IMG/VR virus record: IMGVR_UViG_3300034105_001000
Span: 1 to 41,326 of that record
DNA length: 41,326 nt
Strand: one strand, 5' to 3'
DNA from: a virus
Both the position numbers and the translations under genes were made by a program. Positions 22,499 to 41,239 of this stretch are shown one piece after another (within the stretch, counting starts at the first letter, position 1; each line of letters begins with the position of its first letter). The notes below the pieces were generated by a model, which worked only from the letters and a program-made list of their open reading frames with translations, was not told the DNA's origin and made no database searches.

Positions 22499-22500
22499 AA

Positions 22501-22755: not shown

Positions 22756-22800
22756 TTTATTTAATTTGATTGTTTAATATATGTAATTACGTATTATAAT

Positions 22801-23169: not shown

Positions 23170-23170
23170 C

Positions 23171-23302: not shown

Positions 23303-23307
23303 AATAA

Positions 23308-23701: not shown

Positions 23702-23703
23702 GA

Positions 23704-23955: not shown

Positions 23956-23956
23956 T

Positions 23957-26194: not shown

Positions 26195-26253
26195 ATTTAT
26201 TTGATTTAATTTAATTTGATTATATTGCTATTATTACGTGGGATTAATATTTT

Positions 26254-27194: not shown

Positions 27195-27195
27195 T

Positions 27196-27381
27196 TTAAT
27201 TTTTTATTTTACTTACTATATCTGTAAACCCTTGTATGCTAATATAAGCAGTTGCTATTATAACCCAGTCGGTTGATATTAAATACCCAGAAAATAATCC
27301 AGCACAAGCAACTATAAAAACAGAAAGTTTACGACTAATCCATTTGTTTAATAATATATCTAATTTTTCTTTACTACTCAT
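27196..27381 (-). CDS. Holin (putative)
   Basis: A 61-residue protein with a charged N-terminus (MSSKEKLDILLNKWISRK) and two hydrophobic segments: residues 19-36 (LSVFIVACAGLFSGYLIS) and 38-56 (DWVIIATAYISIQGFTDIV). They are joined by a tight Thr-Asp turn, and the tail is short and basic. Size and topology match small two-segment holins. It lies 1 bp upstream of the M15 endolysin and 1 bp downstream of another membrane-anchored protein, completing a lysis cassette. The specific family was not tested. Confidence 0.7.
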   Translation of the reverse strand: MSSKEKLDILLNKWISRKLSVFIVACAGLFSGYLISTDWVIIATAYISIQGFTDIVSKIKN

Positions 27382-27382
27382 A

Positions 27383-27697
27383 TTAATCTATCGATTTTAA
27401 TGCATGGTCATTTTCTATTTTATCTAGTATCCAAACTAATGCTAATCCACATTTTGTGAGTGTACCAGTTAATTGATTCTTTCCTAGAACACTAGATATA
27501 GTCTCCTCAATATTTCCAAATCTATGTCCCTTATCATTTATAAGTACTTTGTTAAATAAAGTTCTAAACTCCCTATTGCCAAACTTGTCTAAGTTAACTG
27601 CACTACTCTTAAAATATCCAGACTTGTTCTTAACAAATAACCAGTTTATTATAGTTAATGGTAAATAAAGAATATATGCTATTATAAACAGTATCAT
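27383..27697 (-). CDS. Membrane-anchored conserved phage protein
   Basis: A 104-residue protein with an N-terminal membrane segment (residues 1-21, MILFIIAYILYLPLTIINWL), followed by a soluble domain. The soluble part carries the pattern YFKSSAVNLDKFGNREFRTL, then EETISSVLGKNQ and LVWILDKIEND. I recall this pattern as common near lysis genes in phages of Gram-negative hosts, without a known role. It overlaps the upstream gene by 4 bases (ATGA) and is packed against the holin gene. A lysis-control or superinfection role is possible, but that is inference. Confidence 0.6.
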   Translation of the reverse strand: MILFIIAYILYLPLTIINWLFVKNKSGYFKSSAVNLDKFGNREFRTLFNKVLINDKGHRFGNIEETISSVLGKNQLTGTLTKCGLALVWILDKIENDHALKSID

Positions 27698-28110
27698 AAC
27701 AAGATTGCGTCTGCTTGTATAAATAAATCATCAACCTGCTCGTTAGTCATTTGTAATGCAGACTGTAATAATAAAACGGTCTGACTTGCTCTCTCCACAG
27801 TTGTTCCAAATTTCCATATGTATGTTGCAGCAGTCTTAGAAGGTTCTGGCATAGCTTCTATAGCAGACTCTATCTGAGTCTCAAGCTGCATTAACTTTAA
27901 AACCGTTCTAATCCTCCATAGTTGTACCTCGTAAGGTACAGTTATAGTAGGCATGTCTACATATTGTATATACGCAGGAAGTTCATCCTCTGAAATTTCA
28001 AACAAGGTTGGATAATTTACTACTGAACGATGACTCTCTAATGGCTCTTGAGCTACTACTACTGTGTAACTATTTGTACCTACTGAATTAATTTGTCTTA
28101 TATGTCTCAT
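27694..28110 (-). CDS. Tail-fibre-linked small protein (possible fibre chaperone)
   Basis: A 138-residue protein. The N-terminal part is beta-rich (SYTVVVAQEP...), and a helix-rich C-terminal part starts YEVQLWRIRTVLKLMQLETQ and ends QVDDLFIQADAILL. Its ATG shares a base with the fibre stop (TAATG at 28110), so it is translated with the 1382-aa fibre. Small helical proteins encoded right after fibres often assist fibre folding or attach to them. No named family is assigned. It also overlaps the downstream membrane-protein gene by 4 bases. Confidence 0.55.
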   Translation of the reverse strand: MRHIRQINSVGTNSYTVVVAQEPLESHRSVVNYPTLFEISEDELPAYIQYVDMPTITVPYEVQLWRIRTVLKLMQLETQIESAIEAMPEPSKTAATYIWKFGTTVERASQTVLLLQSALQMTNEQVDDLFIQADAILL

Positions 28111-31100
28111 TATTTAAAGTATAATATTGTTAAAGAAACTGATTTTGCTGTTATAGCAGCACTATGTTGAACTACTATTTCAAAGCCATCATTAGCAGCA
28201 TTTCGTCTTAAAAAACAAGACCTACCAGCGGATGGGGGCAATATATTAATATCTGTAAATAACAAACCACTCCCAAAACACATTATATTAGATGCCCCTG
28301 TAAAACCCGTTATGTCTTTTGGAGTTGGAGAACCAGTAGGCAAAGGTAGTCTTACGCTTGTGTTAGAAGAACCAACACTATAACTTAAATTTATTCTTAA
28401 AGTAACCACGTTATTTTGTTCAACCCATTCAAAGTTGTTGGCTAATAAAGTTGTCGGAGCACTTAATGACCAAATAGGAGTTTCTGAATATGTCCCTGAA
28501 TTCGATGTTGAACCACCACCTCCTGTTGCGGCTATTGTTAATTGTCTTGTTGCCCCTGTTCCTGATGGTGTAATAGTTATATTAGTTCCAGCAACTAACT
28601 CCGCTTCAACTTGCGCCCTTGTTGCACTGTTGAAGTCTGAAATGTCGGTGGTCGTTATGTCTGCACCTGCAGTAACTAATCCCTTTGAATCATATGTAAT
28701 CTTTGTTTTTGTAGCTCCTGTTATTGCAGTATTTTCATCTACTTTACCATCTAATTGTGTTTGTATAGAACTTGTAACGCCTTTTACATATTGCATTTCT
28801 AATGCTGTTGGACCTATTGTATCGAATCCAATAAACAACTCTCCAGTAGATGGATTACCATAAACTACAGTGGCAGATGTATTTGCAAGTGATACAGGTA
28901 GTCTAATATTAGAACTAAATGTTTTTTCTCCTGCTATAGTTTCATTTCCTGTTAGATGTACTACACTTGCGTCATTTGCTTTTGCGTTTATTTGAGTTTG
29001 TATTGCACTTGTAACGCCTTTTACATATTTTAATTCTACTAATGATGGATAACCATCCGCTGTAGTTAAACTTTTAATACTTTTATTTGAATCAAAAGAG
29101 GCTATTGTAGAAGTTACTTCTGAGTTAATTACTAACCCTAAATCATTCATTTTAACTCTTTCAATTGATGAAGAACCATTACTAGTGTAAAATATTAAAT
29201 CAGTTTTACCTGAACCACCAGTACCAATACCATTTTGTGTAATAGCTTTTATTTGTGCAGTTGAATAAGCAACACTGTCATCATCTTTTGCAGAAAATTG
29301 TAATGTTCCTACAGTATTTCCAGCTACAATATTAGTATTAGTATTTCTTATATCAAATACTCCACCAGTTGTAGAACCTACTGTAGCTTGTGGTAGTAAT
29401 CCATAGGTAGGAGTTCCAACAACCCCATCCCCAAGAATAGTTTGACTACTGAATGTTTTTGCCCCTGCGAATGTTTGTGTTCCTGTTGTAACTACACCTC
29501 TTGCAGTTGCACTTGCACTTGGTAAATTAAATGTATGTGTACTTCCACTTGAAACAATATCAAAATCTGTTCCTGTTGTTCCTGTTGCAAGTGTTTGAGA
29601 AGGCTGCGTAATTCCATTTATAGCAGTTATACCACCAACAAAATTAGTTATCACTTCGCAAAGGTTACTATCTTCGGTATGTAACGTAACACTATGTAAT
29701 CCAACTGCATTTGAAGCTATAACTCTAATTGCTAATCTATCTGTTGCTAATAAAGTAGTTTGTGGAATACCTACGTTTGTGACATATAAATTAGTAGTTG
29801 TATTTGTTTGTAAACTAATCGGATTTGAAACCCCAGTTGCAATTAATGTAAACGCACCATCATATTTGTATAATTCTATATGAACATTAGTACCTGAATT
29901 GTTAATACTTGATTGTAACCATAACTCAAAGTTCCAAGCACCTGAAGGAATTTCTAATCTGTTTGGACTTTCAACATCTGTTAAGAATTGTGCTATTGTT
30001 CCATTACCAACTAAAGAAAAGTCTGTTCCAGCTCCAATTACCGCAGTTGCTCCTATTTGTTTATATCCAGCTACATTGCTTGCAATACTTCCATTTAAGT
30101 AAAAGTTTACCGAACTACTACCGCCAGCTCCGCCAGTTGATGATATAGTACCTCCACTTATAGTTATGTTTGTACCTGCTGTTATTGTATCGCCATTAGC
30201 AGCTAATAATTGTGCGGAAGTACCACCATCTTTTATTAATTTTTGAGCGGTTAACTCTCCCTCTTGGTTTATGGTTAGTTTATCAACCCCATTCTTATCT
30301 AATTCTATAAAATTCCCTGTTGAAGATGTTCCACTATTTATTACTAAACCTTTATTTGTGTTTCCTAAATTAACTTCAACGCTTGGTGTACCATTACCAT
30401 TACCATTTACTTCAATTCCTTTGCCGTTATAGGACAAAGCGGACATGCCAACTCCCGAAACGACAACTCCCGAAACACCGACTCCCGAATATGAACTTCC
30501 GTAAACCCCAACTCCCGTATATGAAGCTCCTTCAATAGCAGTACCTTCTGCAGAAATTCCTTTAACCCCTATATAATCTGAATTTGAAGAAATCCCAGTA
30601 GAGGTAGTCCCTGACGCGGTTACAGTTAAAGCTACTGCATCATTATTTGTAACTGCAACTGTTATGGGATTAGTTGTGGTTGCGCCAATATTAGTAACCT
30701 GTTGAAGATTTTGTGATCCCACAACATTTGTTAAATATTCTTTAGTCACTACAGCTTTACCAGTAGCGTCTCCGTCTATTAATATATTTGTTTGCCCCGG
30801 TACCGTTGTTAATCCTGTACTTGTAGATTGTAATCTAATTTGTCCTAATCCGTTTCCTATTATTACATTGCCTGCCAATCCAGCAGCGAACGTTCCGTCC
30901 CAACAACCTATAATTGTATTATTAGATCCTGTTGTTACTCCTGATTTTTGTTTAGGATTTAATATTATATTATAACTGCCGGAAGTTATAGACGCATTGG
31001 TTATGTTTTCTATTAATAGATTATTAGTTCCTGTACTAACATCTCTACCAGCTTGAAACCCTATAAGTATATTAGAGCTACCGGAAGAAGCCGTAGCGCC

Positions 31101-32258
31101 TCCCGCAACTGACCCGATTGCAGTATTATTAGAACCTGTATTATTTTGCAAAGCAGACGTACCGACTGCGGTGTTTCTTGATCCATTTAGATTATTTCTA
31201 AGAGCGCTAGGCCCAATAGCGGTATTATATGACCCGCCTTGAAGCAAATGTAAAGCTCCTCCGCCAATTGCAGTATTAAATGTTCCTGTGGTACAAAATC
31301 TCAACGTCCAGTCTCCAAACGCATCATTTGAATGACCTGTAGTTAATGATTTTAATGCTTCCTCGCCAAACGCAGTATTATAATATCCTTGATCTCCTGT
31401 AGTATGTACAACTGATTGCAACGCTAGATATCCTACCGCTGTATTTTCTGATAGAGGGTCAGAGATATTTCCTCTGCCAATTCTTATTCCATTTATTTTT
31501 TTGTCTACGCCACCAAGTTCTTGTAAAGAAGTATTATTTACTATTCCGCTTGTTGTTGCTGAAACTACTCCTACTGTTGGTATGTTAAGTATATTACTAA
31601 TTAATGTAGCCGCCCCAGAACCTGTTGTTGTTAAACTAGTAATCCTATTGTTATATGCAGTATTCCAACTTGACGAACTAGTTATTCTGGAATCTTCTAA
31701 AGTACCCGCCCATCCTAATGTAAGACTTACTCCTTGTAATAACGCGTTACCAGGAGAACCGCCTAGTGTTAGTGTTACATTCGTATCGTCTACTTTTGTA
31801 AGAGCAGCCGGAGTTACAAGTGCAGTACTGTTTAATACATTACCTGTAAATGATAACCCTGTACCTAATGTTATTTCTTCAAATACACCAGTTCCAGTGG
31901 AATATCTACCAATAAGTTTATTAGTGGACATTGATGTCGATATCACAGGAGTCGTGCCTATTGTAGCCGTTATAGGCGCAATAGCGCTTATAGAAGTTAT
32001 ACTTCCAATATCATACCTAGGTATATTAAGTATGCCTGTTGTTTGATTAAGCGTTGCTGGTCCAGCGGAATTATTCGTAGTTAATGTTATTTCTTTTTGT
32101 AATCCACCGTCAACTATAAAGAACTCTGCTAAGTCAGATAACAAAAAATTCCTAGTAACAGTTTTTAATTGACCATTAATACTCTTCTCCGTTGTGCCTA
32201 CTAACTCATCTAATAACTTTATATCGTCGTTTAATGGATATGAATATATTATAGCCAT
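28110..32258 (-). CDS. Large tail fibre with head-like (Hep_Hag-type) repeats
   Basis: A 1382-residue fibre. Residues 1-50 (MAIIYSYPLNDDIKLLDELV, and so on) are the virion-anchoring module shared with two genes upstream. Residues about 270-415 hold repeats of the form 'NTAIG--AL----G--NTA(I/V)G', as in trimeric surface adhesins. Residues about 575-620 hold a second repeat set (VYGSSYSGVGVSG). Two MQYVKGVTSSIQTQ-like repeats lie near residues 1075 and 1155. The last ~130 residues form a compact beta-rich tip. No S74 autocleavage chaperone is seen at the C-terminus. It is expected to be a trimeric host-recognition fibre, and the small protein at 27694-28110 is coupled to it. Confidence 0.85.
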   Translation of the reverse strand: MAIIYSYPLNDDIKLLDELVGTTEKSINGQLKTVTRNFLLSDLAEFFIVDGGLQKEITLTTNNSAGPATLNQTTGILNIPRYDIGSITSISAIAPITATIGTTPVISTSMSTNKLIGRYSTGTGVFEEITLGTGLSFTGNVLNSTALVTPAALTKVDDTNVTLTLGGSPGNALLQGVSLTLGWAGTLEDSRITSSSSWNTAYNNRITSLTTTGSGAATLISNILNIPTVGVVSATTSGIVNNTSLQELGGVDKKINGIRIGRGNISDPLSENTAVGYLALQSVVHTTGDQGYYNTAFGEEALKSLTTGHSNDAFGDWTLRFCTTGTFNTAIGGGALHLLQGGSYNTAIGPSALRNNLNGSRNTAVGTSALQNNTGSNNTAIGSVAGGATASSGSSNILIGFQAGRDVSTGTNNLLIENITNASITSGSYNIILNPKQKSGVTTGSNNTIIGCWDGTFAAGLAGNVIIGNGLGQIRLQSTSTGLTTVPGQTNILIDGDATGKAVVTKEYLTNVVGSQNLQQVTNIGATTTNPITVAVTNNDAVALTVTASGTTSTGISSNSDYIGVKGISAEGTAIEGASYTGVGVYGSSYSGVGVSGVVVSGVGMSALSYNGKGIEVNGNGNGTPSVEVNLGNTNKGLVINSGTSSTGNFIELDKNGVDKLTINQEGELTAQKLIKDGGTSAQLLAANGDTITAGTNITISGGTISSTGGAGGSSSVNFYLNGSIASNVAGYKQIGATAVIGAGTDFSLVGNGTIAQFLTDVESPNRLEIPSGAWNFELWLQSSINNSGTNVHIELYKYDGAFTLIATGVSNPISLQTNTTTNLYVTNVGIPQTTLLATDRLAIRVIASNAVGLHSVTLHTEDSNLCEVITNFVGGITAINGITQPSQTLATGTTGTDFDIVSSGSTHTFNLPSASATARGVVTTGTQTFAGAKTFSSQTILGDGVVGTPTYGLLPQATVGSTTGGVFDIRNTNTNIVAGNTVGTLQFSAKDDDSVAYSTAQIKAITQNGIGTGGSGKTDLIFYTSNGSSSIERVKMNDLGLVINSEVTSTIASFDSNKSIKSLTTADGYPSLVELKYVKGVTSAIQTQINAKANDASVVHLTGNETIAGEKTFSSNIRLPVSLANTSATVVYGNPSTGELFIGFDTIGPTALEMQYVKGVTSSIQTQLDGKVDENTAITGATKTKITYDSKGLVTAGADITTTDISDFNSATRAQVEAELVAGTNITITPSGTGATRQLTIAATGGGGSTSNSGTYSETPIWSLSAPTTLLANNFEWVEQNNVVTLRINLSYSVGSSNTSVRLPLPTGSPTPKDITGFTGASNIMCFGSGLLFTDINILPPSAGRSCFLRRNAANDGFEIVVQHSAAITAKSVSLTILYFK

Positions 32259-32287
32259 TGCTTATTTTGTATTTATTAATTTAATAA

Positions 32288-33016
32288 TTAATTATTTTCT
32301 ATTAGTCTTACTGACATTCCCCATTCTTTTTGCTGGGATGCGCTGATTGCAGTTTGAACATTATATTGAAGCATACGGAAATTAGCGTAGAAAGTACCGT
32401 CTTCTGTTAAACTCCACCAGAGACCGTAGTAGCCAATGTCGAAAAATGCTCCGTCCTCCTCGCGGCGCCCTCCAGGAAGGCCCGTAAAGCCACTTGAGTT
32501 GCTAGCTATCTGAACAGCTTCTTCCCATAAACCAGTGCCCGCTTGTATAGTTCCTGTTGATTTCATCTTGCCTCCTGCCACACTTTCTCCGCCTAAATAG
32601 GTGGTTAATGTTGTCCATTCTGCATCTGTTGGAATATGATAACCCGCAGGTGCTAATCCCCCATTACTAATATTATTAACGGCATGCCAGTTGTATAGTT
32701 TACCATAAATAGCATCATTGGCAGGGTCATTATCATAGTGACACCAAGCCCCTATTCCATCGTTACCTTTGCTGAACCAATCGGCATCGTCAATTGCTTG
32801 GGGTATAGGATCTCCATTAGCGTAAGTACTGACATTAAGATTACATCCTTTCCAAGTTTGTGTCCCAATTACTACATTGGGAAGATTACACGGTGTAATT
32901 GGCGGAGCTAAAGGCCAAATTAAAGTAGAGCCGCAATATATTTGGCTTACATTTGTATTCCCGACTTTTATATTGCCAGATAACGGTGTAATATTATTTA
33001 TCTTTAAATCGCTCAT
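32288..33016 (-). CDS. FISUMP-domain receptor-binding protein candidate
   Basis: A 242-residue protein. Residues 1-42 (MSDLKINNITPLSGNIKVG, then VSQIYCGSTLIWP) are a short phage-type anchor. From about residue 45 it is a 'Fibrobacter succinogenes major paralogous' domain: IGTQTWKGCNLNVSTYANGD, then YGKLYNWHAV (about 108), GLAPAGYHIPTDAEWTTL, GLPGGRREEDG, YYGLWWS and the closing MSVRLIEN. This fold is related to C-type-lectin-like domains used for ligand recognition. The domain is visibly richer in G+C than its neighbours, suggesting capture from a Bacteroidota host. Its start overlaps the adaptor-gene stop (TAATG), so the two act as an adaptor/tip pair. Confidence 0.8.
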   Translation of the reverse strand: MSDLKINNITPLSGNIKVGNTNVSQIYCGSTLIWPLAPPITPCNLPNVVIGTQTWKGCNLNVSTYANGDPIPQAIDDADWFSKGNDGIGAWCHYDNDPANDAIYGKLYNWHAVNNISNGGLAPAGYHIPTDAEWTTLTTYLGGESVAGGKMKSTGTIQAGTGLWEEAVQIASNSSGFTGLPGGRREEDGAFFDIGYYGLWWSLTEDGTFYANFRMLQYNVQTAISASQQKEWGMSVRLIENN

Positions 33017-33444
33017 TATATTATTATATATAGTGTACTATCTAATTTTGTAGCTGCGGCATACTGCGCGGCATCTAATGTTACTATTTGTGTAATCTTA
33101 GGGGTCGCTGTATATATATCATCAGTATTCCTTACGTAATCAGCATTATTTATTCCCGCGCTATTTGTTGTAGTGCCATTTGCCATTAAGTATTCAGTGC
33201 CTAATCCGCCTGATTTTATAAACGAATTAGCTGTTATATTTAGCGTTGTATTTGGACCGGCTGCTGTTACTTGTTGCAACGTTGGAGTTGGCTGTATAAC
33301 TGTTTCTACTAATTCAACTATTGATTGAATTGTAAACGTCCTTGTTCTAGGAGTGTCTTCTCCTCCTTGAACGGCCATTTCTGTGCCTATTAGCAAGTCT
33401 TGCAGCTCTGGTGTTGCTATTGGGTAACTATATATTATTGCCAT
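33016..33444 (-). CDS. Fibre adaptor: shared N-terminal module with short C-terminal module
   Basis: A 142-residue protein. Residues 1-50 (MAIIYSYPIATPELQDLLIG, TPRTRTFTIQSIVELVE) are nearly identical to the start of the next fibre gene upstream (33488-34615) and related to that of the 1382-aa fibre. The C-terminal 25 residues (ITQIVTLDAAQYAAATKLDS, then TLYIII) match the small phage motif 'L--A-Y-A---D--TLY-I'. It has no large receptor-binding tip of its own. The FISUMP gene is coupled to it by a TAATG overlap, so it may carry that protein as its tip. Confidence 0.7.
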   Translation of the reverse strand: MAIIYSYPIATPELQDLLIGTEMAVQGGEDTPRTRTFTIQSIVELVETVIQPTPTLQQVTAAGPNTTLNITANSFIKSGGLGTEYLMANGTTTNSAGINNADYVRNTDDIYTATPKITQIVTLDAAQYAAATKLDSTLYIII

Positions 33445-33487
33445 ATTTTGCGTTTATTATTTTAATTGAAGTTTGTAATACTATTAT

Positions 33488-34615
33488 TTAATTGTATACT
33501 CTTATTTCTATTGGTGTGTTTAACAATAAATTATTAACACCACTTCCACTACCTGTTGTAATATATACATCATTATTATAATCAATTCTGTAATTAATCC
33601 AGTAGGATTGACCGCTGAAGAAACTGGTATCTCCAAAAGTTATTGTTTTATTAGGCGTAAATAAATTACTAGATTTAGCAAAATATTCTCCATTAGAGCC
33701 AACGGGTCCTCCTCCTTGGTTATATTCAAACCATATATTTCCAATAGTGTTCTCTAGTACAGTTGCTACTGGAGCTCCTGTGTTGGCTTTTAATCCCACA
33801 TTAATTCCCCAACTATTCGGAATAGTGCCTGTTGCTACAAAGTAAGTTCCAATATTATTATTTGGCGCACCTACATTTGTAAAATCAAAACTTGCAGCAC
33901 CAGTCAAATCATATATTTCATAAGTTTTACCAATTTCTAAAGTACCAGCAGTATAAATAACAAGATTACTATCACCATTCTGTGTTAATAAAGCTGTATA
34001 CACTTTATATGGTCTTGTAGGTATATCATCTAATGTAGCTAAAGTATATGTTCCTGCTACAGATTTTGCTGGAACTTTTACAGTTGTATTAACTGTTGGA
34101 GAGCCAAATTCTAAATTAGTTGTTTTAGCTATAGCTATATTCCTTTGTCTTAATGAGGCAAATCCATAATCTAAAACCATACTAGCTTGATTATTTTGAT
34201 AAGACTGTTCAATAACTGCTACGTATGGATCTAAAGATAAATTTGAATTTGCTAATGTAGAATTAAAAACACCAAAAGCTGTATTTCTTGCCCCCTCATC
34301 ACCTTCCAATATTTTAATGTAATCTTGTCCACTTTTATCTGCTCTAGTACCAACATCTATTACTTGTTGAAGTCCAGGTGTTGTAGGAATAATAGGTTTG
34401 TTTAATATTTCCGCAAATCCAGATGTAGCGTTCCAGTCTGAATTAACCTGTGTGATATAAGGCGGTAAAGTTGCCTCTACTAAATCAACTATGGATCCGA
34501 TCGTAAATGTTCTTGTTCTCGGAGCATTTTCGCCGCCTTGGACAGCCGTTTCTGTACCTATTAAAAGATCTTGTAATTCCGGTATTGCCGTCGGGTAAAC
34601 GTAGGTTATTGCCAT
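33488..34615 (-). CDS. Tail fibre / spike protein
   Basis: A 375-residue protein that begins with the shared anchoring module (MAITYVYPTAIPELQDLLIG, APRTRTFTIGSIVDLVE; residues 1-52). A glycine/proline linker (KPIIPTTPGLQQVIDVG) follows, then mixed beta structure. The C-terminal tip contains FEIYDLTGAASFDFTNVG-like text and SGQSYWINYRIDYNNDVYI. It probably arose by duplication with the 142-aa adaptor gene next to it, since their first 50 residues are almost the same. It should be a host-contact fibre, with the tip as the variable part. Confidence 0.7.
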   Translation of the reverse strand: MAITYVYPTAIPELQDLLIGTETAVQGGENAPRTRTFTIGSIVDLVEATLPPYITQVNSDWNATSGFAEILNKPIIPTTPGLQQVIDVGTRADKSGQDYIKILEGDEGARNTAFGVFNSTLANSNLSLDPYVAVIEQSYQNNQASMVLDYGFASLRQRNIAIAKTTNLEFGSPTVNTTVKVPAKSVAGTYTLATLDDIPTRPYKVYTALLTQNGDSNLVIYTAGTLEIGKTYEIYDLTGAASFDFTNVGAPNNNIGTYFVATGTIPNSWGINVGLKANTGAPVATVLENTIGNIWFEYNQGGGPVGSNGEYFAKSSNLFTPNKTITFGDTSFFSGQSYWINYRIDYNNDVYITTGSGSGVNNLLLNTPIEIRVYN

Positions 34616-34628
34616 GTTTATTTATATA

Positions 34629-34901
34629 TTAACAGTTCCACTTGTCTAACGCAAGCTTCTTTCTTGTTGGTTCTCCGTTTGGTTTTTTCATTGGCCCTGG
34701 CATACCGGACATTCTAGCACAAAAAGATTTACGTCTCTTTGCATCTTTACTGCCAGCTTTTAATTCCGATGGTTTTTTAGTTACCGCAGTTTGTAATTTA
34801 CTGCCTGGGTTCTCTCTTCTATATGAAGCAACTCCTTTAGCGTTTAATCCGCCTTTTGGATCTTTGCCTTCTTTGCGTGTCCACGCTGCTGTCTTTGCCA
34901 T
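34629..34901 (-). CDS. Small basic protein (DUF6321-like)
   Basis: A 90-residue, very basic protein starting MAKTAAWTRKEGKDPKGGLN, with AKGVASYRRENPG and RRKSFCARMSGMPGPMKKPN. The pattern W-RKEG--PKGGLN-KG---Y and FCARM-GM-GP is that of a small phage family I recall as DUF6321, often near structural or packaging genes. It has no membrane segment. A nucleic-acid-binding or capsid-internal role fits the charge but is unproven. It is separated from the next basic gene by 1 bp. Confidence 0.7.
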   Translation of the reverse strand: MAKTAAWTRKEGKDPKGGLNAKGVASYRRENPGSKLQTAVTKKPSELKAGSKDAKRRKSFCARMSGMPGPMKKPNGEPTRKKLALDKWNC

Positions 34902-34902
34902 G

Positions 34903-35163
34903 TTATTTTTTTTTAGTTCTATTTGTCGATGCGTTGTATGTAAAACTACTTGCCGGTTTTCCAGTCTCTTTAGAAGCTCGGTCCTTGGCTCTTTCTTCAG
35001 CAGTCATTGCATTACGTTTCTTACCATGCGCAGTTAATGTTTTACCATCTGCTTTTAAGTCGCCACGTTTCTTGAGTATACCAATAGCCATTGCTCGACT
35101 ACCAACTTGCGCTGATAATCTATCAATCAACTGTCCTTTACCCATAGCTTTTTGAGTGGCCAT
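34903..35163 (-). CDS. Small basic protein
   Basis: An 86-residue Lys/Ala-rich protein (MATQKAMGKGQLIDRLSAQV, then LKKRGDLKADGKTLTAHGKK). A helical N-terminal half (GQLIDRLSAQVGSRAMAIGI) is followed by a long basic, likely disordered region ending TNRTKKK. It is the middle member of a three-gene run of tiny basic proteins (34629-35398), with 1-bp gaps. The function is unknown. Its charge and the late-operon position suggest DNA binding, for example as capsid cargo. Confidence 0.6.
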   Translation of the reverse strand: MATQKAMGKGQLIDRLSAQVGSRAMAIGILKKRGDLKADGKTLTAHGKKRNAMTAEERAKDRASKETGKPASSFTYNASTNRTKKK

Positions 35164-35164
35164 G

Positions 35165-35398
35165 CTATTTCTTTTTATTTTCTATCTTCTTTGCTTGTGC
35201 TAATATTGCTTTAGTAGGTTTCTTTCCAGAACCTTTATTAGCACGTATGTTGTCCCATAATCCTCTTTCAGATTTAGAACCATCTTTTCTTTTGATCATT
35301 TCTTTCATATTACTTTTATCATTACTGGCATCACCAATCCAAAGACCTTTATGCCCTTTAACACCTAAACCTTGTGGACCTATACCTTTTATAACCAT
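35165..35398 (-). CDS. Small basic protein
   Basis: A 77-residue basic protein (MVIKGIGPQGLGVKGHKGLW) with a glycine-rich start, then MKEMIKRKDGSKSERGLWDN and a Lys-rich end (AILAQAKKIENKKK). No domain is recognised. Like its two downstream neighbours it is strongly cationic and packed with a 1-bp gap, so the three are one translational block. Confidence 0.55.
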   Translation of the reverse strand: MVIKGIGPQGLGVKGHKGLWIGDASNDKSNMKEMIKRKDGSKSERGLWDNIRANKGSGKKPTKAILAQAKKIENKKK

Positions 35399-35415
35399 AA
35401 TTTCAAATATTAAGA

Positions 35416-35637
35416 TTAATCAAATAAGTCAGTAAGAAAACCTTTTTCAGTAAGGTCCTCAGGGTTTTTATTAGCTCTTTCCTGGGCTTTATTAATTTCA
35501 TCTTGAGTGAATAAAATACATCTTTCATTAGATCCATTCTCATCCTCTACTTGCACTGCAATATAAGAATGAGCTGACCCAAATTTTCTTTCTGTATTTT
35601 CTACGTGAATTAATCTACCTTTTACGATTTTTGTCAT
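35416..35637 (-). CDS. Small hypothetical protein
   Basis: A 73-residue protein (MTKIVKGRLIHVENTERKFG). Its beta-strand-rich first half includes SAHSYIAVQVEDENG, and its acidic helical second half ends GFLTDLFD. Unlike the genes on both sides it is not basic. It lies between the three basic proteins and the collagen-like fibre. No family was recognised. A small beta-domain binding DNA or a fibre is a guess. Confidence 0.5.
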   Translation of the reverse strand: MTKIVKGRLIHVENTERKFGSAHSYIAVQVEDENGSNERCILFTQDEINKAQERANKNPEDLTEKGFLTDLFD

Positions 35638-35671
35638 ATCTATTTCTTTTTATTTAATGCAAGTTCTAATT

Positions 35672-37063
35672 TTATAATGTAATCTCTATATACGTAACAT
35701 ACACATCTAAATCCCCAGTGCCTAGCGTTGGATTTCCCCCATTAGCTTTTAATTTATATGGTCCAGTTGATGTACTTCCACTAACGCTATCTGCTAAGTA
35801 TATAGTATTATTCATATATCCAGCGGAAGTATTTGTTAATGGATTAGGATTTATCTGAGTCTGAGTATCAATATTTAACCCATCTAACAATGCAAAAGCA
35901 ATTGTATTTAATGTATATGCAGTTCCAGAATTTCTTTTAATATGAATATTAATAGGCACATTAACCTTTCCAGACGAAGCTGTAGGTAAAACTGTTATAG
36001 GAGTTGTAAATAACTGTAATACTTGAGCACTAGTTACGATTGTCTTTAACACTTTAGTAACCTGAGCGCCAGTAATATCACTTGTTAAAGCAATAGTGCC
36101 ATCTGCATCCGGGAGGCTTTGAACTCTATTTGCAGAAACAGTAGTGGGTAGTTGTAATGTTATTGTTTTTAAACCCCCACTATTTTTACCAAATCTTACA
36201 TTATTTGTATTTACAATAACCGAATCTGAATTAAGTGAATTTTGAACAGATACACTTGAACCATTTATAGTAGAACTTGTATTAAGTGTTCTAGCAGCAG
36301 AACCAGACATTATGGTTCTAGATATAGTATTAACTTTCCATAAACCACTACCTAAGCTAATAAAAACATAAGACTCGCTAGAAAAAATTGTAAATACCCC
36401 GGTCTGTTGATTCGCAGCACCCATTACAAATGGAAATGGTAAATTTAGTGTAGCATCACCATACATAGTTAATACATTAGTTCCCGTCTCTAAAAAAACA
36501 CTTATTTCTTTGCCTATTGGAGCAGAAGCTGGTAAGTGCACAGCAGAGCTTCCAGAACTTAAATTAATTCTGTTTATATCATAACTAAGTGTTTGATATG
36601 GTGAATCACCCGGATAAAGATACATTATGCCATTAGTTTGTGCAGTAGCGCTACCGGCCGGCCCCTGTGCTCCAGTAGGCCCTTGAACCCCTTGAATACC
36701 TTGCGCTCCTTGTGATGCTAATAATGCCCAGTTTGCCGTAGCTAAATCTGGCGCCGTAGTCCCTGAAGTTGCTAAAATACAAAACCAAGAAGCCCCATCA
36801 TATCCTACAGCATCATCTGCAACATAAGATGTTCCTGAAACCCATGCGCCTTGCCAGTTTAATCCAGCTGGACCGACTGCTCCAGGTGTACCAGGAATAC
36901 CTTGAACTCCTTGTGGACCGGCTGAACCAGGACCGACAGTGTCAAGAACGTCCTGCATTGTATACCACTGTTGCATTGCTTTTAAAGATGTACTACCAGA
37001 ATATGTTGTGTTAGTACCGTTACTAACCATAAAGACTTTCTCGTCTGATTGTATTATTGCCAT
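35672..37063 (-). CDS. Collagen-like tail fibre with carbohydrate-binding module
   Basis: A 463-residue fibre. Residues 1-43 are an attachment region (MAIIQSDEKVFMVSNGTNTT) unlike the module of the other fibres beyond the MAII start. Two collagen-like Gly-x-y segments lie at residues 44-67 and 118-138. Between them, residues 68-115 form a small aromatic domain (NWQGAWVSGTSYVADDAVGY, then SWFCILATS) that resembles carbohydrate-binding modules of the CBM5/12 type. The C-terminal part is Ser/Thr/Asn-rich beta structure. It probably forms a trimer that contacts surface polysaccharide. Confidence 0.8.
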   Translation of the reverse strand: MAIIQSDEKVFMVSNGTNTTYSGSTSLKAMQQWYTMQDVLDTVGPGSAGPQGVQGIPGTPGAVGPAGLNWQGAWVSGTSYVADDAVGYDGASWFCILATSGTTAPDLATANWALLASQGAQGIQGVQGPTGAQGPAGSATAQTNGIMYLYPGDSPYQTLSYDINRINLSSGSSAVHLPASAPIGKEISVFLETGTNVLTMYGDATLNLPFPFVMGAANQQTGVFTIFSSESYVFISLGSGLWKVNTISRTIMSGSAARTLNTSSTINGSSVSVQNSLNSDSVIVNTNNVRFGKNSGGLKTITLQLPTTVSANRVQSLPDADGTIALTSDITGAQVTKVLKTIVTSAQVLQLFTTPITVLPTASSGKVNVPINIHIKRNSGTAYTLNTIAFALLDGLNIDTQTQINPNPLTNTSAGYMNNTIYLADSVSGSTSTGPYKLKANGGNPTLGTGDLDVYVTYIEITL

Positions 37064-37073
37064 TTTTATTTGT

Positions 37074-37322
37074 TTATTTATTAGTTATTTTATATTTTTT
37101 ACCACTTTCTTTCTTGGTACCTTCCCCATCATTGCCTCGGTTCTGTTTCACAGATTCAAACCTTTTATCTTTATGGTCGTAATCCTTATCTTTATTCCCA
37201 GGGCTTTTACGATGCATCCTTTGAGAGTGTGCCTTCTTATTTTTTCTATCTTCAGTTTTAGCATAAGCCAAATCCCTAGCAGCTTTTTTCTTAGCAGCTT
37301 CAGGTGATAATTTCTGTGCCAT
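37074..37322 (-). CDS. Small Lys/Arg-rich protein, first gene of the leftward operon
   Basis: An 82-residue, highly charged protein (MAQKLSPEAAKKKAARDLAY). A helical Ala/Lys start precedes a basic, polar stretch (RKNKKAHSQRMHRKSPGNKD) and a Lys-rich end. It is probably disordered and nucleic-acid-binding. It is the most upstream leftward gene, so it sits closest to the divergent junction. A candidate Bacteroidota-type -7 element (TAGGTTTG) lies about 35 bases before its ATG. Confidence 0.55.
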   Translation of the reverse strand: MAQKLSPEAAKKKAARDLAYAKTEDRKNKKAHSQRMHRKSPGNKDKDYDHKDKRFESVKQNRGNDGEGTKKESGKKYKITNK

Positions 37323-37951: not shown

Positions 37952-37991
37952 CTTACAAGACGAATACGAAGTGTATTTGATAATATATATG
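37952..37991 (+). promoter_or_regulatory. 40-bp promoter-like element, copy 1
   Basis: CTTACA occupies positions 1-6 and ACGAATACGA positions 9-18. TTTGATAAT is at 25-33 and ATG at 38-40. It is followed by a leader AATCTAAACAATAACA and the 68-aa gene at 38010. The same element, with identical internal spacing, occurs six more times to the right. Confidence 0.75.
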
Positions 37992-38009
37992 AATCTAAAC
38001 AATAACAAT

Positions 38010-38216
38010 ATGAGAGCAAGACTAAGTGATCTGCATCCGCAGACAAGACTAGACCTGATTGAGGAATCGAGATGGCAGAAAGGATCAGAGTATGTAAACG
38101 AGTGCATCAAGTCAGATGCATACATATCTGAGATGTGCGTGTGGATCAACACAAGACAAGGGCACGCATACTGGGACTACATTGATCGAAGAGGATCAGA
38201 TCCTAGGCTTAACTAA
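38010..38216 (+). CDS. Small early protein with T-x-x-G-x-x-YW motif
   Basis: A 68-residue protein (MRARLSDLHPQTRLDLIEES, ending RRGSDPRLN). The region SEMCVWINTRQGHAYWDYID carries a 'W--T--G--YW--I' motif shared with the protein at 40298-40516, so the two are probably paralogues of a small phage family. The inner ATG was chosen because other early genes here start at an inner ATG behind a short A-rich leader. The in-frame ATG at 37989 lies inside the promoter element. The function is unknown. A terminator follows 13 bases after the stop. Confidence 0.6.
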   Translation: MRARLSDLHPQTRLDLIEESRWQKGSEYVNECIKSDAYISEMCVWINTRQGHAYWDYIDRRGSDPRLN

Positions 38217-38229
38217 CATAAAACAATAA

Positions 38230-38252
38230 GGTCCCTTAAATGGGATCTTTTT
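38230..38252 (+). terminator. Intrinsic terminator after the first early gene
   Basis: GGTCCC (38230-38235) pairs with GGGATC (38242-38247), including one G-T pair, around a 6-base loop. It is followed directly by TTTTT (38248-38252). It ends the transcript of the 68-aa gene. The rest of the 38217-38477 gap holds a G+C-richer stretch and two promoter-like elements. Confidence 0.75.
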
Positions 38253-38305
38253 ACTCCACTAGATGGAATTGGCAGGGCGGAGCATGCGAGCTTGCGAGCG
38301 AAGCG

Positions 38306-38314
38306 TGTATAGCA
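38306..38314 (+). promoter_or_regulatory. TGTATAGCA site
   Basis: A perfect copy of the 9-mer, only 3 bases before promoter element 2. A short G+C-rich run with repeated GCGAGC and AGCG precedes it (38276-38305), as also happens before element 1. Confidence 0.35.
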
Positions 38315-38317
38315 AAA

Positions 38318-38357
38318 CTTACAGAACCGACACGAGGAGTATTTGATAATATATATG
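38318..38357 (+). promoter_or_regulatory. 40-bp promoter-like element, copy 2
   Basis: The copy has CTTACA, then CCGACACGA, TTTGATAAT at positions 25-33 and ATG at 38-40. It lies 43 bases before copy 3. The two act as a tandem pair upstream of the 119-aa gene, with no gene between them. Confidence 0.7.
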
Positions 38358-38400
38358 TAAGTAACAAAGTAACAAACTAATCTAAATTGAAATAAGAGTT

Positions 38401-38440
38401 CTTACAATAACAATACGAAGAGTAATTGATAATATAAGTG
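38401..38440 (+). promoter_or_regulatory. 40-bp promoter-like element, copy 3
   Basis: CTTACA, then AACAATACGA, ATTGATAAT at positions 25-33 and GTG at 38-40. The transcript would start near 38440, giving a leader of about 38 bases before ATG at 38478. Confidence 0.7.
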
Positions 38441-38477
38441 TAACAAATAACAACTAATAACTTTAAATTAAATAACT

Positions 38478-38837
38478 ATGAACAATCAAGAATTATTGCA
38501 ACAAGCTATCGCTAAATTATCTAAAGAAGAATTGGCTTTAATCTATCCACCGATCGAACGTGCAAACTTCGTAGTCCGTAAGAATTGGCTAGGCCGAAAT
38601 CAAGTAATCACATTCATCAACAACAAGAATCAACGAGTGACTTATAATCACGACGAAGTGTTGAATGTAATGCTACCTAAGCTATCCATAATGCCATGTT
38701 GGATTAAACGTGAGTATTGGTCTCAATCAACCGATATGCCAAGTAATGTTAGACACTTAGCTAAAATCGAAGTGGTCGAAGTTGAAATCAATGAAAATTC
38801 AAAAGAATTTCAAGATGCTGAAGCAAGTCTAAGTTAG
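38478..38837 (+). CDS. Early hypothetical protein
   Basis: A 119-residue soluble protein (MNNQELLQQAIAKLSKEELA). An N-terminal helix is followed by a beta-rich middle (RNQVITFINNKNQRVTYNHD) and an acidic Glu-rich end. No domain or membrane segment was recognised. It has two promoter-like elements in front and starts in the AATAACTATG context common to this region. A 15-base palindrome (38826-38840) overlaps its stop codon. Confidence 0.6.
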   Translation: MNNQELLQQAIAKLSKEELALIYPPIERANFVVRKNWLGRNQVITFINNKNQRVTYNHDEVLNVMLPKLSIMPCWIKREYWSQSTDMPSNVRHLAKIEVVEVEINENSKEFQDAEASLS

Positions 38838-38860
38838 ACTGCTTTGGCGCCCTACGGGGA

Positions 38861-38869
38861 TGCTATACA
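38861..38869 (-). promoter_or_regulatory. TGCTATACA site (reverse orientation)
   Basis: The reverse complement of TGTATAGCA, abutting promoter element 4 directly (its last A precedes CTTACA). Confidence 0.35.
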
Positions 38870-38909
38870 CTTACAGTATAAATACGAAATACAATTGATA
38901 ATAATAATG
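38870..38909 (+). promoter_or_regulatory. 40-bp promoter-like element, copy 4
   Basis: CTTACA, then AAATACGA, ATTGATAAT at 25-33 and ATG at 38-40. The following bases TAACTAGG are both the usual leader start (GTAACTA) and the 5' acceptor strand of the tRNA-like element at 38911. Confidence 0.7.
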
Positions 38910-38910
38910 T

Positions 38911-38982
38911 AACTAGGACGAGTAATGGTAAACTCAGGCCGACCAGGCGCCCACAATGTAGGTTCGATTCCTACCCTAGTTT
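38911..38982 (+). tRNA. tRNA-like gene with abnormal anticodon arm
   Basis: A 72-base cloverleaf candidate. The acceptor is AACTAGG/CCTAGTT (perfect 7 bp). The D arm is GAGT/ACTC with loop AATGGTAA. The T arm is GTAGG/CCTAC with loop TTCGATT, and the discriminator is T. No CCA is encoded. The anticodon arm (38937-38953) does not form a normal 5-bp stem with a 7-base loop: only GGC/GCC can pair, and no U precedes any anticodon. A shifted reading would place CCA (Trp), but with two mismatches. It is transcribed directly from promoter element 4. It is either a degenerate tRNA or a tRNA-like RNA with another role. Confidence 0.5.
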
Positions 38983-39001
38983 CTAACTTAAATAAACAAC
39001 T

Positions 39002-39145
39002 ATGCAATTACAAACTCTAGCTTACAAACTAGCCACTAAGCACGGCTACAAGTACACACGTACAACTGAATTCATGATTCTGAGCTATTCAGATCAACTT
39101 AAACTAAGCAACTTAATCAGATTTATACTAGAACAAGAAAGATAG
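39002..39145 (+). CDS. Small early hypothetical protein
   Basis: A 47-residue frame (MQLQTLAYKLATKHGYKYTR, ending LSNLIRFILEQER) that begins at ATG in the context AAACAACTATG, 19 bases after the tRNA-like gene. It is basic and mostly helical, with a leucine-rich C-terminal helix. It ends 3 bases before the 70-aa gene, as expected in an operon. No family was recognised. Confidence 0.5.
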   Translation: MQLQTLAYKLATKHGYKYTRTTEFMILSYSDQLKLSNLIRFILEQER

Positions 39146-39148
39146 TAT

Positions 39149-39361
39149 ATGATAACAAAAATAATCTTTGTATGGTACCTAATGACTGGGGCCATACACT
39201 CAGAAGGATTCAACTCTGATCTGAGCCGTGAACAATACACGATACACAAACCAGACAGCGAGTATCCTGATGTAACATTGCATGTTGAAAACGCATACAA
39301 AGAAGAAGTGCTGAACTGGATCGAAACTGGTAAGTTTGTATATGATGAAGATATGAAATAA
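39149..39361 (+). CDS. Small early hypothetical protein with hydrophobic start
   Basis: A 70-residue protein. The first 15 residues (MITKIIFVWYLMTGAIHSE) are hydrophobic and could be a short signal or membrane anchor. The remainder is acidic and soluble (REQYTIHKPDSEYPDVTLHV, ending KFVYDEDMK). It follows the 47-aa gene by 3 bases and is closed by the hairpin terminator at 39372-39425. The function is unknown. Confidence 0.55.
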   Translation: MITKIIFVWYLMTGAIHSEGFNSDLSREQYTIHKPDSEYPDVTLHVENAYKEEVLNWIETGKFVYDEDMK

Positions 39362-39371
39362 TGATTAGAAA

Positions 39372-39425
39372 AGTGCGACGTTAGCCTGCTATTAGTAGTT
39401 ATAAGCAGCTAATGTCACTCTTTTT
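39372..39425 (+). terminator. Terminator hairpin, homologous to the junction hairpin
   Basis: The arms 39372-39390 and 39404-39419 pair (AGTG, AC-TTAGC and TGCT blocks, with small bulges), followed by CTTTTT. It closes the operon of the tRNA-like gene and the two small proteins. It shares GACGTTAGCCT and TAATGTC-CTCTTTT with the hairpin at 37386-37437. Confidence 0.7.
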
Positions 39426-39433
39426 GCTATACA
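39425..39433 (-). promoter_or_regulatory. TGCTATACA site (reverse orientation)
   Basis: The reverse complement of TGTATAGCA, overlapping the end of the terminator. The non-coding stretch from here to 39552 also holds an inverted repeat CGGTAA/TTACCG (39501-39524). Confidence 0.35.
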
Positions 39434-39540
39434 CCATATTAGCCTGGCTTTGAAAGATCGCCGGAAGAGTAGACTCCGTCCTACAACATACCCAAATTCG
39501 CGGTAAAACGATCATTTCTTACCGTTTTCGTAGTAAAACG

Positions 39541-39549
39541 TGTATAGCA
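39541..39549 (+). promoter_or_regulatory. TGTATAGCA site
   Basis: A perfect copy 3 bases before promoter element 5, the same arrangement as at 38306. Confidence 0.35.
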
Positions 39550-39552
39550 CCG

Positions 39553-39592
39553 CTTACAAAACGAACACGAATCAAGTTTGATAATATATATG
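39553..39592 (+). promoter_or_regulatory. 40-bp promoter-like element, copy 5
   Basis: CTTACA, ACGAACACGA, TTTGATAAT at 25-33 and ATG at 38-40. It is followed by the leader AATCTAAAAACAACC, nearly the same as after copy 1, and then the 103-aa gene. Confidence 0.75.
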
Positions 39593-39610
39593 AATCTAAA
39601 AACAACCACT

Positions 39611-39922
39611 ATGAACTATAAATTAATTACAAGTAGTCAAATCTACTTCTGTTACGCCGATGATCGACATATTATAGTAATAAAAGAAGGCGACGATATT
39701 GTCGGACTCAATTACATGCAAGGTGACGAGTACCAATTATTCCTAGAACAATATAGTGACATCGACCATGACTTAACTGACTTCTACAATGGCGTTAAAT
39801 ACTATCTTGGTGGCGAAACTGAGCTAGATCGAGTAAATCAAGCGATCTGGGCATACCATGACTACTCTTCTCGTCGTGATGAAAGAGAAACTGGGTTCAT
39901 ATCGTTAAAGACGGGATTATAA
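39611..39922 (+). CDS. Early hypothetical protein
   Basis: A 103-residue acidic protein (MNYKLITSSQIYFCYADDRH). A beta-rich first third is followed by helices rich in Asp/Glu (YSDIDHDLTDFYNGVKYYLG) and a C-terminal Arg/Asp patch (SSRRDERETGF). The start at 39611 fits the ACTATG context. An in-frame ATG at 39590 lies inside the promoter element and was not used. No family was recognised. Confidence 0.55.
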   Translation: MNYKLITSSQIYFCYADDRHIIVIKEGDDIVGLNYMQGDEYQLFLEQYSDIDHDLTDFYNGVKYYLGGETELDRVNQAIWAYHDYSSRRDERETGFISLKTGL

Positions 39923-39959
39923 CTACCTATCTTTAAATTCGATCAAACATCTATCCACC

Positions 39960-39999
39960 CTTACAAAACGAATACGAGATTGATTTGATAATATAAGTG
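39960..39999 (+). promoter_or_regulatory. 40-bp promoter-like element, copy 6
   Basis: CTTACA, ACGAATACGA, TTTGATAAT at 25-33 and GTG at 38-40. It drives the longest early cluster, starting with the 55-aa gene at 40024, and seems to serve eight small genes up to 41195. Confidence 0.75.
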
Positions 40000-40023
40000 T
40001 AACTAACAAAAACTAATTCTACT

Positions 40024-40191
40024 ATGCAAGATTACTATGGAATGACTGAAAAAGAGTACTTTGCCTATATGTTTGGCGAAGAATTTATGAACTCTAATAA
40101 CAAAGGTTCTTTGGTTGAATACCCTGAAGAAGAAGAATACATACAAATGTGGCGAAATTCGCTAACTATTAATCAAATAAACAGTATATAA
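40024..40191 (+). CDS. Small acidic early protein
   Basis: A 55-residue protein (MQDYYGMTEKEYFAYMFGEE) rich in Tyr and Glu, with a run of four Glu in PEEEEYIQMW. The start is in the CTACTATG context, 24 bases after promoter element 6. Its stop shares one base with the next start (TAATG, 40189-40193). It is probably helical. An acidic decoy that binds a host protein is one possibility. Confidence 0.5.
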   Translation: MQDYYGMTEKEYFAYMFGEEFMNSNNKGSLVEYPEEEEYIQMWRNSLTINQINSI

Positions 40192-40298
40192 TGAGAAGAA
40201 AGATTAGATTTTCCGATGTGATTAAGTTAATAATCCTAAGAATTAAGTATGAACTTCGCGAAGGCGGTAAAGCGGCGGGTTACGCTATAAGACGATAA
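40191..40298 (+). CDS. Tiny basic early protein
   Basis: A 35-residue frame (MRRKIRFSDVIKLIILRIKY, ending AAGYAIRR). It is basic with an amphipathic helix. It is joined by TAATG overlaps on both sides to the 55-aa and 72-aa genes. The exact fit of both overlaps is the main support that it is translated. The function is unknown. Confidence 0.45.
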   Translation: MRRKIRFSDVIKLIILRIKYELREGGKAAGYAIRR

Positions 40299-40516
40299 TG
40301 ATGACTAGAATACAATGGATGCGCGGTTTAGATCGTGAGTTAAGAGAAAAGATTATCGCTAGAATAGTCGATGGTAACGAAGATGTTGATTTTATCGATC
40401 GCTGGATGGCGAGTGATGCGGACATCAAAGAAGATGGAATTACAGGTGCATTTACTTTTTCAACTACAAGAGAAGGTTTAACCTATTGGTCAAGAATTAA
40501 CGCTAATATTAAATAA
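40298..40516 (+). CDS. Small early protein with T-x-x-G-x-x-YW motif
   Basis: A 72-residue protein (MMTRIQWMRGLDRELREKII). The C-terminal TGAFTFSTTREGLTYWSRIN carries the same 'T--G--YW--I' signature as the first early protein (38010-38216), although the rest differs. I associate the pattern with a family of tiny phage proteins without known role. The start shares a base with the previous stop (TAATG), and a second ATG directly follows. Confidence 0.6.
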   Translation: MMTRIQWMRGLDRELREKIIARIVDGNEDVDFIDRWMASDADIKEDGITGAFTFSTTREGLTYWSRINANIK

Positions 40517-40524
40517 AGAAAACT

Positions 40525-40629
40525 ATGGAAAGTAATTGTTGTGGGTCTTACGAATTATATGAAGATACAGGTATCTGCGCTGAGTGTGGCGAACACGCTG
40601 ATTGGAATAACTATGAAGATGAAGAATAA
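40525..40629 (+). CDS. Tiny zinc-ribbon-like protein
   Basis: A 34-residue frame (MESNCCGSYELYEDTGICAE, then CGEHADWNNYEDEE) in the AACTATG context. It has Cys5, Cys6, Cys18, Cys21 and His24, a CxxC knuckle pair suggestive of one zinc site, and an acidic tail. It lies 8 bases after the previous gene and 1 base before the next. A mini zinc ribbon that binds a host protein or nucleic acid is plausible. Confidence 0.5.
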   Translation: MESNCCGSYELYEDTGICAECGEHADWNNYEDEE

Positions 40630-40630
40630 T

Positions 40631-40855
40631 ATGGAAGATATAATTGAATACACGAGAACATTACGTGACGGTACTACACAAGCTATGTACCGATCAAAGT
40701 GGATGAATCAAGAATATCACTCTGACAGTAGAGAAGATATACAAGAATGGTTAAACGAGAAAGTAACTAATGTCGAGAAATACAAGGCTATTAGAGAAGC
40801 AGAAGATAAAGCAATCCACTCATTCTTTGAGGGCACATTAACAAGTAAAGATTAA
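40631..40855 (+). CDS. Small early hypothetical protein
   Basis: A 74-residue protein (MEDIIEYTRTLRDGTTQAMY). Helical and charged stretches include REDIQEWLNEKVTNVEKYKA, with an acidic C-terminus. The open frame extends 90 bases further upstream, but that part overlaps the zinc-ribbon gene, and this ATG follows its stop by one base. No family was recognised. Confidence 0.5.
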   Translation: MEDIIEYTRTLRDGTTQAMYRSKWMNQEYHSDSREDIQEWLNEKVTNVEKYKAIREAEDKAIHSFFEGTLTSKD

Positions 40856-40858
40856 GTT

Positions 40859-41032
40859 ATGAAAGAAGGATATAAAGTATTAGAAACTATTGGTAGTGGA
40901 TTATATATTCAAGTGACCAACTATTTAGGATTAAACGAAATTGGGCATTATAGATATTATGGCGAATCTAGCGTAATAGACTCGCCCTCAGTGATTGGAA
41001 TGTGGAAACCGAAATTAATTAAACAACAATAA
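40859..41032 (+). CDS. Small early hypothetical protein
   Basis: A 57-residue protein (MKEGYKVLETIGSGLYIQVT, ending GMWKPKLIKQQ) rich in beta-strand and Tyr/Gly. The start lies 3 bases after the previous stop, in the same cluster. No membrane segment or recognised family. Confidence 0.45.
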   Translation: MKEGYKVLETIGSGLYIQVTNYLGLNEIGHYRYYGESSVIDSPSVIGMWKPKLIKQQ

Positions 41033-41033
41033 T

Positions 41034-41195
41034 ATGGAATATAGAATTAGGATTACAGAGACTGCATCCAGAGTAATGGTTATTGATGCAGAAGATGAAC
41101 AATCAGCGGTTGATATTGTTAGCGAACAATATGGTAAAGGTGAAATCATATTAAACTATGACGACTACGATTGCACGGATATTGAAGCCTTATAA
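41034..41195 (+). CDS. DpnD/PcfM-like small protein
   Basis: A 53-residue protein (MEYRIRITETASRVMVIDAE, then YGKGEIILNYDDYD). The order 'I-ITET-SR-V-IDA---E-A---V---Y--GEI-L--DD' fits the small DpnD/PcfM family found on mobile elements and phages. Its function is not established. It follows the previous gene by 1 base and precedes promoter element 7. The family call is from motif memory. Confidence 0.55.
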   Translation: MEYRIRITETASRVMVIDAEDEQSAVDIVSEQYGKGEIILNYDDYDCTDIEAL

Positions 41196-41199
41196 TACT

Positions 41200-41239
41200 C
41201 TTACAGAACGAATACGAATTAGATTTGATAATAATAATG
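41200..41239 (+). promoter_or_regulatory. 40-bp promoter-like element, copy 7
   Basis: CTTACA, ACGAATACGA, TTTGATAAT at 25-33 and ATG at 38-40. It starts 4 bases after the preceding stop codon and leads into a leader of 19 bases before the next start. Confidence 0.75.

Follow-up and report, generated by a model that had tools for sequence, protein, structure and literature searches.

A 40-bp element with the look of a promoter recurs seven times near the right-hand end of IMGVR_UViG_3300034105_001000, an IMG/VR virus record of 41,326 nucleotides whose full length (hereafter the window) was analyzed here. The record is evidently a fragment, because genes run off both ends. Late, structural genes occupy most of the window on the minus strand, and the elements accompany an array of small plus-strand genes (Table 1). 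The timing term "early" is used for this second strand on the basis of its gene content and orientation.

An exact pattern search of the window returned seven copies, all on the plus strand and at precisely the starts listed in a preliminary description of this DNA; dinucleotide shuffles of the same sequence give 0.08 matches on average. All seven copies place CTTACA at positions 1-6, an ACGA block at 15-18, (A/T)TTGATAAT at 25-33 and the G of an RTG triplet at position 40, and the invariant spacing claimed earlier therefore holds throughout. No eighth copy appears in the window when three mismatches are allowed, and neither the minus strand nor the left-hand late region has one, in agreement with the original report of none in the leftward half. 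That report had also placed each copy ahead of a gene cluster or a tRNA-like gene. This is true of all but the second copy, which is not directly before a gene and instead lies 83 bp upstream of the third, forming a tandem pair ahead of the gene at 38478. The tRNA-like gene after copy 4 is a real Rfam match with an intact 7-bp acceptor stem, although its anticodon arm is odd and ARAGORN missed it. The first 46 bases of copy 7 are the same as those of a copy found elsewhere (G008:8300, minus strand).

Table 1. Features of the window, and one protein gene from outside it (last line)
Feature	Coordinates	Strand	Remarks
Element copy 1	37952..37991	+	CTTACA 1-6, AATACGA 12-18, TTGATAAT 26-33, ATG 38-40; gene start 38010
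Element copy 2	38318..38357	+	tandem with copy 3
Element copy 3	38401..38440	+	followed by gene 38478-38837
Element copy 4	38870..38909	+	tRNA gene starts 2 bases past position 40
Element copy 5	39553..39592	+	gene start 39612
Element copy 6	39960..39999	+	followed by gene 40024-40191
Element copy 7	41200..41239	+	gene start 41259; gene cut by contig end
tRNA	38911..38982	+	Rfam RF00005, 35.5 bits (cut-off 29); just after copy 4
Early-strand array of small genes that the elements serve	38010..41195	+	assigned by position
Late/structural strand, no element copy	1..37322	-	tail spike, GroEL, GroES, TerL, portal, virion proteins, start of giant virion protein
Conserved 106-aa early protein	L115:5024-5344	-	DDLPF tail; probably single-strand-binding protein

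The element recurs in related phages

A strict form of the motif matched 14 other viral contigs, and a looser form found one to seven copies in each of them, always on one strand. The 49 unique sites from these contigs give the consensus CTTACA R.. AAY ACGA n7 W TTGATAATA ...TG TAAC. GATAAT, a box that was part of the search pattern, occupies positions 28-33 in 49 of 49 sites, and position 40, which lay outside the pattern, is G in 92% and A in 8%. A position weight matrix scan, in which reversed sequences never scored above zero, recovered 5-13 copies per contig and about 8-13 per near-complete genome, on the strand that bears the replication genes. The element is thus present in related phages, where the preliminary description had proposed to look for it, and most related phage contigs of 50-70 kb carry it, always on the early/replication strand. 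Across the whole viral collection at least 119 stretches match with the right spacing, and two control scans with the spacing shifted by one base returned no match.

Outside genes lie 177 of 183 unique copies, for which the leader from element to start codon peaks in length at 18-22 nt. Among the leading words from an unsupervised dyad search of early-gene upstream regions are TACA-N8-ACGA and ACGA-N9-GATA, present in as many as 74 of the 177 regions; the same search of late-gene upstream regions yielded little above shuffles.

The named relatives are Caudoviricetes sp. MW202828 (62% in the terminase) and Flavobacterium phage elemo (43%) and, by their portal proteins, Maribacter phage Panino, Cellulophaga phi38:1 and Tenacibaculum Gundel_1. 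No copy of the element was found in MW202828, elemo, Panino or phi38:1, and literature searches found no description of the motif.

The geometry is that of a sigma-type promoter

If the purine at position 40 is taken as +1, a start suggested by the sequence, GATAAT falls at -12 to -7 and GATAATA at -12 to -6, with A at -11 and T at -7 as in a sigma-70 -10 hexamer. This placement argues for a sigma-type promoter. Upstream are two further boxes, TTACA at -38 to -34 and AAYACGA at -28 to -22, the nearer of which is separated from the -10 box by 9 bp. Among offsets of 5-15 bp, the similarity between the two boxes is greatest at 11 bp, or one helical turn. There is no -35 hexamer 17 ± 1 bp upstream of the -10 box, and the 21-bp spacer between CTTACA and GATAAT is, as first noted, longer than the standard sigma-70 range.

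Nor does the element carry the Bacteroidota sigma-A signature of TAnnTTTG at -12 to -5 with TTG near -33, a misfit that had also been pointed out. Flavobacterial sigma-A requires TAnnTTTG at -12 to -5, and the alternative motifs described for these bacteria (TAnnTTGY, the sigma-54 -24/-12 pair and the CGT motif of extracytoplasmic function sigma factors) do not include GATAATA (PMC9723704). In the phages that bear the sigma gene described below, TAnnTTTG is found in 3 of 177 upstream regions of early genes and 5 of 157 of late genes, whereas it is commoner in relatives without that gene (9 of 49 and 27 of 47 regions). Host-type promoters before genes numbered zero in the sigma-bearing contigs.

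A divergent sigma factor is encoded by element-bearing phages

The early strand of one relative, G005, encodes ribonucleotide reductase, thymidylate synthase, a primase-helicase, Erf, an exonuclease and a 254-aa protein with a match to the PHROG RNA polymerase sigma factor family (E=1.6e-18). A profile built from seven homologues matches FliA, SigA and RpoD in the PDB with E about 1e-7 (6e-8). An AlphaFold model of the protein (pLDDT 75) matches, in Foldseek, the sigma-A chains of initiation complexes along the whole chain (E=8e-6, prob 1.00), and its low overall TM-score arises because the domains are placed differently. PHROG, the PDB profile and Foldseek together show regions 2 and 4 in one chain, as expected of a sigma-70-family protein, and we predict from sequence and model that it binds core polymerase and directs initiation. 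The phage factor that the preliminary description had supposed necessary can therefore be made specific, as a divergent sigma-70-family gene in the related phages that carry the element.

This gene is present in all eight genomes of a first set that include the replication region; in a second set, 28 of 31 motif-positive contigs carry it. The four relatives named above without the element lack the gene as well, and no match was found among 50,697 named phages. In bacterial genomes it occurs only on one short contig of a Flavobacteriaceae metagenome-assembled genome, which is probably phage DNA. The 129.5-kb contig G055 has two sigma genes (20760-21524 and 83045-83800) about 62 kb, or roughly one genome length, apart, and perhaps represents two related phages joined in assembly. 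Because the region that carries the gene in relatives lies beyond the end of the window, a sigma factor of the window's own phage is predicted from those relatives.

Using the sigma gene as bait, we fetched 80 loci that provide a test independent of the motif. In these loci AYACGA and GATAATA are separated by 9 bases 361 times and by any other gap from 3 to 17 at most twice, and TACA and ACGA are separated by 8 bases 306 times and by other distances at most 7 times. Core copies number 385 on the sigma strand versus one on the other; at least one occurs in 70 of the 80 loci. Several loci that lack the core carry versions of their own, such as TTACAAtAATAATACGT, TACGGAGCAAACACGT and TTACAAAtAAAAT, with unchanged geometry and GATAATA; other core-less loci have little DNA upstream of the sigma gene. 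In G020, TTCGAA stands where others have TTACA. The upstream boxes differ between lineages while the -10 box is fixed, a constancy partly owed to collecting copies through GATAATA. The promoter-like character first ascribed to the element is borne out by its sites before genes and a tRNA, its -10 geometry and a spacing that is rigid over hundreds of copies.

A proposed mechanism and the points that weigh against it

We consider it probable that the element is a promoter of the early strand, read by host core RNA polymerase with a phage-encoded sigma factor and starting transcription at position 40. The reader would most likely be a reprogrammed bacterial RNA polymerase rather than a viral one. 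The holoenzyme would melt GATAATA as a sigma-70-type -10 element, its sigma subunit being encoded in the same gene array as the elements, and would start at the purine, so that about 20 nt of leader precede the start codon. In place of a -35 element the promoter would have its two upstream boxes, a pair of TACR half-sites spaced by one helical turn, and these would probably be contacted by another DNA-binding factor of the phage or by sigma region 4 in an unusual position. Transcription would thereby be diverted from the host sigma factor. With the same degree of confidence, as one part of this overall explanation, we regard the element as a promoter class of the early, pre-replicative strand in a lineage of podovirus-type phages of Bacteroidota.

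Several observations count against this proposal. Pfam alone finds sigma regions 2 and 4 only below threshold, the 21-bp gap exceeds what sigma-70 normally spans, and both the promoter role and the start at position 40 are read from sequence. Sigma gene and element are co-inherited, and their co-occurrence, being confounded by ancestry, may be plain co-inheritance. Moreover, distances between sigma proteins show no correlation with how far the upstream boxes diverge (rho 0.04; for region 4, -0.02), and sigma therefore cannot explain the whole element. Finally, these same elements lie ahead of the sigma gene, so that a reading by sigma alone needs a starter for the first round. An element stands directly before the sigma gene in some lineages, an arrangement that would give positive feedback and not a start, and in most lineages the nearest one is a median of 2.4 kb upstream.

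Sigma region 4 was rejected as reader of the upstream boxes, since lineages whose boxes differ strongly have almost the same recognition helix in it. Because the boxes drift without a matching change in region 4, a second, predicted factor probably reads them, and the phage sigma factor plausibly reads the -10 box. Two candidates for the second factor were examined and set aside. A 207-aa protein with a weak helix-turn-helix (HTH) adjoins the sigma gene in 75 of 80 loci and is co-conserved with it, yet where the boxes change, its recognition helix stays almost constant. The divergence of the 106-aa early protein tracked the boxes best (rho 0.50), but its DDLPF end resembles that of a single-strand-binding protein and the signal came partly from one lineage with a different protein.

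Alternative readers of the element

Alternatively, host sigma-A holoenzyme might read the element with help from a phage activator bound to the upstream boxes, leaving the phage sigma factor to serve other genes. We judge this unlikely. The precedent is the middle promoters of T4, where a sigma-70 -10 element is combined with a MotA box at -30 through sigma appropriation, and a stringent -10 is paired with a tolerant activator box replacing the -35 element (PMC2988021). The present element is likewise built from a fixed box at -12 to -7 and phage-specific upstream boxes that drift, and it also serves pre-replicative genes and a tRNA. The conserved weak-HTH protein beside the sigma gene would suit an activator, and the start-up problem would be solved. 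Unlike the T4 promoters, the element has two upstream boxes rather than a single one centered at -30, the nearer ends 9 bp and not 12 ± 1 bp before the -10 box, and its phages have a sigma factor of their own. The Pfam families recorded for 45 G005 early proteins include neither MotA nor AsiA. Against the activator reading, GATAATA does not match either the flavobacterial sigma-A box or the alternative host motifs (PMC9723704), and the dyad search found no other promoter class that would need the phage sigma factor.

It is improbable that the reader is an alternative sigma or another factor of the host, in which case immediate-early promoters would draw on an unstudied host regulon. Early genes do need to be read before any phage protein exists, and the sigma gene is itself downstream of elements. 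However, relatives without sigma use host-type boxes and lack the element, and promoter versions vary between phage lineages while the -10 box stays fixed.

To an equal degree we doubt a self-contained sigma program in which host sigma-A promoters are dropped, sigma reads GATAATA, a second factor reads the upstream boxes and a sigma-region-2-like domain, brought into the cell within the giant virion protein (about residues 1316-1430 in G005), starts the first round. Evidence for this last element is weak but consistent. A segment of the giant virion protein of G005 (L114:11575-11940, plus strand, residues 1316-1437) is collinear with sigma region 2 and similar to it by eye, as is the case also in L381-L446. 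The Foldseek list for this segment consists almost wholly of sigma factors, none significant singly (best E=0.17). Sequence profiles gave no confirmation, and the domain is missing from some element-bearing phages.

A phage RNA polymerase, made early or carried in the virion, was one of the possibilities first suggested for the element, and we now consider it quite improbable. The motif is long and rigid, and the giant virion protein, at about 2,000-3,900 aa, recalls that of N4. A late protein of G005 (within the late proteins from L112:11767 to L114:7591) contains the crassvirus muzzle C-terminal domain (Pfam PF25729, 2.4e-7), which suggests that the tail machine is distantly related to that of crassviruses; certain crassviruses carry a polymerase in the virion. 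Nevertheless, the early, late and giant virion proteins examined yielded no RNA polymerase family. A PF00940 search of 16 genomes found none, although this search was weak and its controls gave no signal, and the six largest open reading frames of each contig have no DxDGD or DFDxD motif. The giant protein was rejected as a polymerase, having neither a polymerase motif nor a PDB match, and the -12/-7 geometry suits a sigma factor.

That the element is no promoter at all, and acts in replication, packaging or as an RNA leader, is very improbable even though it is known here from sequence evidence alone, given that copies lie on a single strand at gene starts with leaders of about 20 nt and that the tRNA 2 bases after copy 4 excludes an RNA leader there.

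Comparison with other promoter systems

SPO1 gp28 and T4 gp55 are phage-encoded sigma factors that read phage promoters. The proposed system shares with them a sigma-family protein of the phage, a phage-specific promoter and the host core polymerase. It differs in serving the early/replication strand instead of late genes, in its 40-bp tripartite promoter and in a host phylum, Bacteroidota, whose primary sigma factor is atypical. At promoters of the Pho-box type, two 11-bp direct repeats replace the -35 element. The two similar half-sites of the element, 11 bp apart and ending about 10 bp before the -10 box, are arranged in the same way, but their similarity is weak and no response regulator was found for the element. 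Flavobacterial sigma-A promoters presumably use the same polymerase core and also have short leaders without Shine-Dalgarno sequences, whereas the element lacks the -7 box, has a different -10 and adds two upstream boxes (PMC9723704).

Other recurrent sequences

Genomes contain as many as 18 copies of a 10-mer, TGCTATACAC (fewer than 0.1 expected), about one per kb and on the early strand. It lies mostly inside genes, in frames 1 and 2, and the 80 sigma loci have 220 occurrences on one strand against 41 on the other. The window contains it at 38860-38871 and at about 39428 (plus strand), and its reverse form, GTGTATAGCA, near 37926, 38298 and 39538 (plus strand). The 10-mer is also present in G010, G005 and others, and is absent from the four named relatives.

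On the late strand, the word ACGTAATAATA lies ahead of the phage gene for GroEL and of a few further late genes (window near 26239, minus strand; G044:56391, plus strand). It is possibly a late promoter; the late-strand search gave only weak words.

Implications

The element-bearing viruses are a widespread, unstudied family infecting Bacteroidota, and our analysis names a promoter class and a candidate sigma factor for this large group, which is known almost only from metagenomes. The series of lineages with one fixed -10 box and drifting upstream boxes allows the assignment of proteins to boxes to be tested. If the proposal is true, a sigma factor that reads an E. coli-like -10 box amid a phylum that uses TAnnTTTG would constitute an orthogonal switch, and would be a useful genetic tool.

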